DNA of 44,538 nt from a virus. Positions 21,419 through 29,423 of the stretch are shown piece after piece. The translations under genes were made by a program, and so were the position numbers. The DNA lies in the IMG/VR virus record IMGVR_UViG_3300017756_000024, positions 1 to 44,538 of that record. One strand, 5' to 3'. Numbering within the stretch: the stretch's first letter is position 1; each line of letters begins with the position of its first letter. The notes below the pieces were generated by a model. The model was given only the letters and a program-made list of their open reading frames with translations, made no database searches and was not told the origin of the DNA.

Positions 21419-21447
21419 ATTATAACCCAACTTGAGATAAATGTCAA
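21419..21447 (-). promoter_or_regulatory. Consensus promoter of the minus-strand (accessory/late) operon
   Basis: Minus strand: TTGACA (21447-21442), 17-nt spacer, TATAAT (21424-21419), preceded by a run of A and T (AAAAAATTTTTC). The start codon of terS begins 6 nt after the -10 box. Both boxes match the sigma70 consensus exactly. Confidence 0.85.
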
Positions 21448-24396: not shown

Positions 24397-24481
24397 TCTA
24401 CTTTTTAAGCGGCGCGCCTGCGGCTGGGTTTCCCCTAGTCTATTATAACACGAATTTGAAAGCCTGTCAAGTCTCGTAGAC

Positions 24482-24844: not shown

Positions 24845-24873
24845 ATTATAGGGGAGCCTTCTTGAAATGTCAA
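24845..24873 (-). promoter_or_regulatory. Perfect sigma70 consensus promoter
   Basis: Minus strand: TTGACA (24873-24868), exactly 17 nt, TATAAT (24850-24845). It gives a leader of about 40 nt before the 52-aa gene. Confidence 0.85.
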
Positions 24874-25463: not shown

Positions 25464-25787
25464 ATGGCAAGTAAAAATTATACAGACGAGATGGTTTCTC
25501 AAATGGTAGAAAACTACCAAGAACAACCAAGCATGGACACAGTTCATGAGCTTGCACAGGCTTTCGGTAAGACTTCAAGAAGCATTATCGCTAAGTTGTC
25601 CAGAGAGGGTGTTTACAAAGCACAACCTAGAACAACTAAAACAGGTGAGCCTGTTGTAAGAAAAGACGAGTTAGTAGCTGAAATGGCAACTATACTTGGA
25701 ATTGACGAGGCAATGATAGCTTCTGTTGCGAAGGCAACCAAAGCTGACCTCAAAAACCTAGTAGCAAGACTTTCAGAGATTTGCTAG
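25464..25787 (+). CDS. Small HTH DNA-binding protein, paralogue family member A
   Basis: The 107-aa protein starts MASKNYTDEMVSQMVENYQE (ATG at 25464, after TTAGGAG; an upstream in-frame ATG lies before the promoter -10). Residues 5-55 form a Myb/GcrA-like HTH: LAQAFGKTSRSIIAKLSREG is the helix-turn-helix with recognition helix. The C-terminal half (VRKDELVAEMATILGIDE, then KATKADLKNLVARL) is a second helical domain. The gene at 29121 encodes a full-length paralogue. These may act as abundant nucleoid or transcription factors (inference). Confidence 0.75.
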   Translation: MASKNYTDEMVSQMVENYQEQPSMDTVHELAQAFGKTSRSIIAKLSREGVYKAQPRTTKTGEPVVRKDELVAEMATILGIDEAMIASVAKATKADLKNLVARLSEIC

Positions 25788-25924: not shown

Positions 25925-25953
25925 TTGACAAAACAAAAAAGCCAGTATATAAT
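25925..25953 (+). promoter_or_regulatory. Consensus promoter of the giant RNA
   Basis: TTGACA (25925-25930), 17-nt spacer, TATAAT (25948-25953), preceded by AATATTTTTC. Predicted start is near 25960. No coding gene follows for more than 1 kb. Confidence 0.85.
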
Positions 25954-25959
25954 ATATAT

Positions 25960-26957
25960 ATTGAATGGGAAAACAAAAGAGAAACCCAACAAGCGGAACT
26001 GGAGAGTGAACCAAACGCAGTCTAACATATCAGCTATGCGATCATTTTAGAAGCAAAGAGTTCATGGAGAGGTTGGTGGGAGTTACGCTGTTCTTTTTAA
26101 GCTTTTGCTAGTATTTCATTTTTGGAACGAGACGAAAAATGGTAAAACTAGCCCTAACAATCTTAGGCGAGAGAGTTAGAAGCCTGTTGCACACGCTGTG
26201 CTAGTGCTGTAGTAAGCCCTCAGAAGTGGGCAGGTGAATAGCCAATTACTAACTCTCGCCCCCTAACAATGCTACTGAACAACGATTCGTAGGCAGTCAA
26301 ACATTGGCACTCGCTGTCAAACATTGTCCAACCCTACGGCACGGCAGAAGCCCAGTAGCAAAGCGAAGCGTCTGGAGTATGTATTTACTAGCGTTTGCAA
26401 GATAACAAACCAATTATATGGTAGCAACTTGCAACGACTGTTCGCTTCCTCTGTTCGATCGAGCCACTGGTTGAACGGCAGTATTGATGATGGCAGGTAA
26501 TTGACGCGTTGATTATGACCTCAACAATCACGCAAGTTGATAGTAAGCTACGAAACTATCCGTTTAGAGAGTGCTATCGTGAAAACTTTCACATATGGTG
26601 GTAGTCAGCATTGCTGGCGAGGCTCGGGAGTTGCAACTCCTTGGAGTCTAAAGAGAGGTGGAAGCAAGGTAACAAGGACTTTGTCTCGGGAAACTTGCTC
26701 ACTCTCCCCCTAATAAAATTGAGACTGAAAAGCAAAAGTAAACTGCGACAGCCGCTAAGGCTGCACAATGTTCGGCACTGGTCACGCAACGCACTCCGAT
26801 TGCAGTTGAAAAGCGAAGTAGGAAATCGACTACTCTATAGATGGTCGTCAGATTAGTAGACGCTGTAAAGGTTACTCGGCTGAATTCCTATAGGCAGTAA
26901 GCCGTCTACTTTCGAGTAGTATGAACTTGGCACTCGCTCAGAGTGCCTTTTCTATTT
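25960..26957 (+). ncRNA. Giant structured non-coding RNA candidate (~1 kb)
   Basis: The region is bounded by a perfect promoter and an intrinsic terminator and has no credible protein gene on either strand. It is richer in G and C than neighbouring genes and packed with local helices: 26166-26179 with 26249-26260 (12 bp, 2-nt bulge), GCACA/TGTGC (26189-26201), GCCC/GGGC (26216-26231), TTGCAAG/CTTGCAA (26395-26401 with 26428-26434), GATAGT/ACTATC (26539-26560), GGAGT/ACTCC (26627-26640), CAGCC/GGCTG (26749-26763) inside AACTGC/GCAGTT (26741-26807), GTAGACG/CGTCTAC (26856-26909). Repeats GTCAAACATTG and CCCTAACAAT occur twice each. Size and phage setting recall GOLLD or ROOL RNAs, but I could not confirm a family match. 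Confidence 0.75.
26929..26957 (+). terminator. Intrinsic terminator of the giant RNA
   Basis: Perfect 7-bp stem GGCACTC/GAGTGCC (26929-26935 with 26941-26947), 5-nt loop, then TTTTCTATTT. The 5' half, with flank TTGGCACTCGCT, also occurs at 26304-26315 inside the RNA, so an alternative pairing is possible. Confidence 0.85.
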
Positions 26958-26979: not shown

Positions 26980-27008
26980 TTGACTGACATCAAAATTTCA
27001 AGTATACT
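26980..27008 (+). promoter_or_regulatory. Promoter with AAAAATAGTTC upstream, leaderless
   Basis: TTGACT (26980-26985), 17-nt spacer, TATACT (27003-27008). The next ATG is 7 nt downstream (27016). Confidence 0.75.
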
Positions 27009-28931: not shown

Positions 28932-29149
28932 CTGAGTATAAAAACGAAGTAGAAAAACGAAGGTTACAGCTAGAGTATGAAGATTGGGCAGATAAGATAG
29001 TGCATATTTATGTAGAGTATGGAGTTTGCTACAAAACCTTCAACTCTGGCAGAGTAACGAAAGATGGTGTAGAAATAGAACCAGCTAGAGAATATGAAGA
29101 AAGCATAAGGAGAATGGAATATGAATTACAGCGAAGACGACACAGCTAA
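28928..29149 (+). CDS. Hypothetical charged protein, 73 aa
   Basis: The protein starts MTEYKNEVEKRRLQLEYEDW and ends in a charged helix (YEESIRRMEYELQRRRHS). It overlaps the downstream HTH gene by 29 nt. Function unknown. Confidence 0.6.
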   Translation: MTEYKNEVEKRRLQLEYEDWADKIVHIYVEYGVCYKTFNSGRVTKDGVEIEPAREYEESIRRMEYELQRRRHS

Positions 29150-29423
29150 CATAGTTCAGCAATATATGGATAATCCAACTAGAGAAACTGTGGACAAATT
29201 AGCACAAGTATATAATAAAAGTGCTAGAAGTATCATAGGTAAGCTAGCAAAGGAAGGAGTATATCAACGAGTAGAATACCGAACCAAAACTGGAGAAGTG
29301 CCAGTAACAAAGTTAGAGATAGTAGAGGAAATCCAATCCCAGCTGGGTTGTAATCAAACCCTAACTGGGCTTGAGAAAGCTCCTAAAGAAACTTTAAAGT
29401 TGTTACTAGAATCTCTGGACTGA
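29121..29423 (+). CDS. Small HTH DNA-binding protein, paralogue family member B
   Basis: The 100-aa protein starts MNYSEDDTANIVQQYMDNPT with AAGGAG upstream. It aligns along its whole length with the 25464 protein: LAQVYNKSARSIIGKLAKEG matches the HTH, YRTKTGEVPVTKLEIVEEI the linker, and APKETLKLLLESLD the C-terminal helix. It closes a seven-gene string and is followed by a terminator. Confidence 0.75.
   Translation: MNYSEDDTANIVQQYMDNPTRETVDKLAQVYNKSARSIIGKLAKEGVYQRVEYRTKTGEVPVTKLEIVEEIQSQLGCNQTLTGLEKAPKETLKLLLESLD

Follow-up and report, generated by a model that had tools for sequence, protein, structure and literature searches.

A region of roughly 1 kb in the genome of a tailed phage almost certainly encodes a structured non-coding RNA. 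Comparative analysis shows a predicted autonomous transcription unit, specifying no protein, that is conserved in position and contains covarying helices. The explanation best able to accommodate these observations, to which a probability of roughly 0.55 is assigned, is that the unit produces a stable giant structured RNA, which would be shared by a large group of tailed phages not yet cultured and act as a folded scaffold or particle. To our knowledge, few giant structured RNAs have been found in bacteria and their phages, and recent cryo-EM studies have revealed that GOLLD, ROOL and OLE assemble from RNA alone, to an end that is not known. An additional class, which dozens of diverged lineages keep at the same location behind a strong promoter, would provide an independent case from which the purpose of giant RNAs might be approached; as the exchangeable hairpin tips described below indicate possible partner-binding places, the question could be addressed hairpin by hairpin.

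A conserved transcription unit beside a D5-like gene

The stretch of DNA analysed, hereafter the window, is a 44.5 kb (44,538 nt) linear virus record. It encodes the portal and large terminase proteins of a tailed phage, along with a T5-like capsid protein with a fused protease, which is around 39% identical to those of T5-like phages; BLAST comparison of the DNA with named phages and plasmids revealed no similarity. The RNA and its surroundings are arranged as follows:

25464..25787, + strand: small D5-like DNA-binding protein gene, the upstream neighbour (107 aa; PHROGs phrog_1725 and phrog_323)
25925..25953, + strand: RNA promoter, TTGACA-17-TATAAT (12/12 consensus positions; position kept in 57 lineages)
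25960..26955, + strand: predicted giant non-coding RNA, ~1 kb (own promoter and terminator, homologues, covariation)
26929..26955, + strand: intrinsic terminator (stem 26929-26947; fold z = -5.1)
26980..27008, + strand: promoter of downstream small genes, TTGACT-17-TATACT (a promoter is present here in 57 lineages)

The start of the RNA at 25960 is deduced from the position of the -10 box. Both the perfect promoter and the clean intrinsic terminator noted in an earlier, sequence-only reading of this DNA are present, the latter comprising a GC-rich stem of 7 bp followed by TTTTCTATTT. The window contains five perfect TTGACA-17-TATAAT promoters; when its full sequence was randomised 40 times under a first-order Markov model, none arose on this strand. 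Besides that of the RNA, three perfect ones lie nearby on the minus strand (24845-24873, 24442-24470 and 21419-21447).

The suggestion that this kilobase lacks a credible protein gene was likewise borne out. The longest open reading frame (ORF) in the RNA region is 81 aa, compared to a median of 71 aa in shuffled sequences, and the indels distinguishing the window from its relatives are mostly not multiples of three. None of the ORFs in this kilobase, ahead of the gene at 26980, has homologues in three or more divergent lineages, and no conserved gene is found here in the window's own group. The GC content of the RNA is 45%, against 36% for the window. In several other groups, short open frames with homologues were flagged within the RNA region, many of them in antisense orientation; these are read as apparent by-products of DNA similarity rather than genes.

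Close relatives were retrieved using a 16-base pattern from the end of the RNA, while a scan with the neighbouring protein identified 80 viral loci, which following dereplication represented 57 lineages with enough downstream sequence. The search for homologues in virome contigs, proposed by the sequence-only reading, thereby recovered the same layout in 57 of these 57 lineages, all of which were selected through the neighbour gene: the D5-like gene is followed by a consensus promoter, the RNA and then a further promoter. The length of the RNA ranges from 0.4 to 1.6 kb (median 1,033 nt), and approximately 41 of the 57 lineages have a terminator satisfying a strict pattern. When two of the hairpin modules described below were searched for in 2.9 million viral contigs, ignoring the neighbour gene, 13 of 15 distinct contexts of M6 and 24 of 26 of M12 followed that gene, with the remaining two in each case lying at contig edges. 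Homologues of the window's own RNA were found in seven loci (L113, L112, L105, L108, L114, L115 and L118), and its 3' core only in the window, L114, L115, L118 and, partly, L116. The bulk of the RNA cannot be aligned across all lineages, and homology of the whole class is therefore founded on position and shared modules.

At least 587 viral stretches encode relatives of the neighbouring protein, which has no match among named phages and in a search of hosts was found in just two MAG contigs, from unrelated taxa. A second D5-like DNA-binding gene is present at 29121-29423 of the window (phrog_1725, weak), and a second copy, ~40-49% identical, is also found downstream in several relatives. Many lineages have a second promoter 110-310 nt upstream, leaving space for a short extra RNA, and a tRNA-Glu adjoins the giant RNA in three loci (L116:5506-5580, L132:2216-2290 and L174:577-651). 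At L113:2030-2160, a terminator of the L114 type stands in place of the locus's own, with a remnant of the old terminator downstream forming a recombination scar.

Covarying helices and exchangeable hairpin tips

The following elements were distinguished within the window RNA:

26107..26152, + strand: M2, long hairpin GCTAGT...ACTAGC (z = -2.6)
26152..26161, + strand: direct repeat CCCTAACAAT, copy 1 (motif positions)
26166..26260, + strand: 12-bp helix, bulged by 2 nt, at the base of an inner branched loop (z = -2.45)
26261..26270, + strand: direct repeat CCCTAACAAT, copy 2 (motif positions)
26296..26326, + strand: direct repeat GTCAAACATTG, two copies (motif positions 26296 and 26316)
26395..26434, + strand: M1 hairpin, TTGCAA-GATAACAAACC...GGTAGCAAC-TTGCAA (16 instances, near-invariant core)
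26506..26533, + strand: M3 helix, GCGTTGATT...AATCACGC (helix 1; both-side changes in 4/11 pairs)
26620..26649, + strand: hairpin AGGCTCGGGAGT/ACTCCTTGGAGTCT (helices 7-8 of the 3'-half alignment; z = -2.0)
26655..26706, + strand: hairpin with M1-like tip, GCAAG-GTAACAAGG...GGAAAC-CTTGC (helix 9; both-side changes in 5/11 pairs)
26741..26807, + strand: M4, three-way junction of the 3' domain, TGTTCGGC...TCCGATTG (helices 14, 15 and 17)
26877..26904, + strand: 3' hairpin, CGGCTGAATTCC...GGCAGTAAGCCG (helix 22; 10 pairs, 100% paired; both-side changes in 2/10)

The bulged helix and both pairs of short repeats had been picked out by the sequence-only reading. The strands of the former are GGCGAGAG-[AG]-TTAG (26166-26179) and CTAACTCTCGCC (26249-26260), and it is flanked by the two copies of CCCTAACAAT; on reading the sequences, a different but equally paired helix, GCGAACTGTG/CACAGTTCGC, was found to replace it in L115, and M2 to be retained with compensatory changes in L116, L117 and L118. 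Taken as a whole, the 1 kb folds with unremarkable energy (z = -1.65, with one of 20 shuffles as good), such that energy alone is no proof of structure, and the convincing evidence is instead covariation across relatives.

An alignment of the 3' half (window positions 26470-26950, eight sequences) contains compensatory changes on both sides of 32 of 123 predicted pairs, exceeding the 17.8 +/- 2.7 found in shuffled controls, none of 500 reaching the observed value, and the maximum of seven in slid controls. In the 5' domain, for which a different set of 14 more distant related RNAs was aligned, 23 of 28 pairs covary, relative to 13.1 in shuffled and at most five in slid controls. The alignments used comprise few sequences (8-16 rows), from which the structures were themselves partly derived; shuffling ignores the relatedness of the sequences, which sliding preserves. 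Among the individual modules, covariation was found in 6/6 stem pairs of M5, 6/7 of M6 and 6/6 of the M1 outer stem, the M1 counts being lowered by two alignment rows shifted at the 3' end. In all three, a nearly invariant tip caps a stem that varies freely yet remains paired. Many columns in both the 3' half and the 5' domain tolerate G-U pairs, implying selection on RNA rather than DNA. The covariation proposed as a test of the structure was detected in both domains, and the unit has two general hallmarks of a giant structured phage RNA: considerable length with no conserved reading frame, and helices that covary across relatives.

Over the RNA, L113 shares 94% identity with the window, yet has a different hairpin at the M1 site (26395-26434). 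At 26655-26706, the tip is M1-like in the window, whereas in L115 and L118 it is a canonical M1, borne by a stem with different pairs. In more distant RNAs, the tip within the site CAG[TA]GTGC-AG-[tip]-CAAGTAA may be M1, M6, M12 or one of several others. These comparisons show nearly invariant predicted hairpin tips replacing one another at the same site. Wholesale shuffling of modules was rejected as a general rule: module order is collinear in 262 of 271 lineage pairs, and the nine exceptions compare with six of 289 for neighbouring coding DNA. The chances appear even that these sequences are giant phage RNAs of a new class, in which exchangeable cassettes (M1, M5, M6, M12 and others), each with its near-invariant tip and freely covarying stem, are grafted onto a folded scaffold, the particle evolving by replacement of tips.

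Known large RNAs and possible functions

No Rfam family matched the window or its relatives at gathering level, including GOLLD, ROOL and OLE. Neither the GOLLD (RF01998) nor the ROOL model gave a hit to the window at E <= 10 or to nine relatives at E <= 1, and group I and II introns, HEARO, OLE, tmRNA and RNase P were also without an Rfam match; lax thresholds yielded only chance matches, such as a tmRNA fragment in L128. Of the two possibilities entertained by the sequence-only reading, a divergent GOLLD/ROOL-type RNA is thus unsupported by sequence, and a new class is favoured. Assignment to a new class is supported by these comparisons. A literature search returned no description of the RNA, although subscription papers and most preprints fell outside it and an earlier description is possible.

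In size, context and style, the RNA comes closest to GOLLD and ROOL, albeit that neither is matched in the Rfam test for membership. GOLLD is a large (>800 nt) structured RNA of phages and prophages with a conserved 3' part, a variable 5' part and tRNAs nearby (PMC12286853). The window RNA is similarly a large structured phage RNA with one conserved and one variable part, but has interchangeable tips and is not typically located in tRNA islands, the only tRNA in the window being 14 kb away and tRNAs being present in three of 57 fetched relative loci. ROOL is likewise a large and complex RNA encoded by phages, for which no protein partner is known (PMC12286853); the window RNA differs in being larger (median ~1 kb) and fixed beside a D5-like protein gene. 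The VIPR vrRNA, a phage non-coding RNA of ~100 nt with 9-16 tandem YNNGG repeats and an adjacent RAMP protein (PMC13142463, preprint), also originates from long intergenic regions, but was rejected as a candidate, as the window RNA nowhere has three YNNGG units in succession and no RAMP neighbour was recognised.

Under the favoured explanation, the RNA would be strongly transcribed by the host's sigma-70-type polymerase, becoming abundant in infected cells, and would fold into a branched scaffold. The resulting particle might act alone or as oligomers, in the manner of the RNA-only assemblies GOLLD and ROOL, with the tips serving as tertiary-contact or docking elements, either for the RNA itself or for a protein. 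This mechanism falls somewhat short of an even chance of being correct. The main rival, a less likely one, is that the RNA is a decoy or sponge, the tips of which mimic host RNA elements so as to titrate an RNA-binding protein, a nuclease or a defence factor of the host, being exchanged in an arms race. Such a role would suit the swapping of tips, both between relatives as close as the window and L113 and at a homologous site across lineages, and the occurrence of M1 alone at the 5' end of Hsp20 mRNAs in other phages suggests that something recognises or needs it elsewhere; however, the conserved multi-helix scaffold exceeds the needs of a sponge, and no host target has been identified.

It is improbable that the RNA is a relative of GOLLD or ROOL diverged beyond recognition by covariance models, in spite of its similar size range, own promoter and phage context: the faint echoes of the conserved and variable parts of GOLLD and of its nearby tRNAs (PMC12286853), the latter in the form of the tRNA-Glu of three loci, are set against the absence of model matches and of any tRNA from most of the 57 loci. 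Similarly low odds attach to a precursor cut into several small RNAs, one from each hairpin. The hairpin modules are self-contained, and in L138 M1 has its own short unit upstream of the large one, but conserved long-range helices (26655-26706 and 26741-26807) join neighbouring modules, the order of which is collinear in nearly all lineage pairs. Least plausible by far is an element acting as DNA, such as a replication origin or packaging site with palindromes selected at that level, to which the fixed genomic place near a DNA-binding protein gene might point; the RNA is framed exactly by a consensus promoter and a terminator, the near-invariant tips are asymmetric, and the G-U pairs kept in many columns would not be favoured by a DNA hairpin.

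M1 outside the giant RNA

The M1 pattern is absent from 84,980 genomes searched for hosts. In other phages, M1 is found alone at the 5' start of the leaders of Hsp20-type chaperone genes, named by reading (L196, L197, L198, L200, L202, L208, L209, L215, L216, L218 and L219), where it is possibly a 5'-end stabiliser. Downstream of the leader M1 lies a ROSE-like RNA thermometer (RF02523), although its score in L197, 30.3 bits, does not reach the gathering score of 43. The manA RNAs of marine phages are also located upstream of ibpA (Hsp20-type) chaperone genes (Weinberg 2010; PMC2864571), but M1 is a small hairpin followed by this sub-threshold thermometer, and identification of the M1 leaders as the manA motif (RF01745) was rejected as they do not match it. 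As M1 also occurs in such leaders, it is a general RNA building block rather than a signature of the giant RNA. A single instance was found in the leader of a UDP-glucose-dehydrogenase-like gene, again named by reading (L211:9751-9795), and at ~1720-1820 in L138 M1 forms a mini transcription unit, which follows the neighbour gene, precedes the giant RNA and has a promoter of its own.
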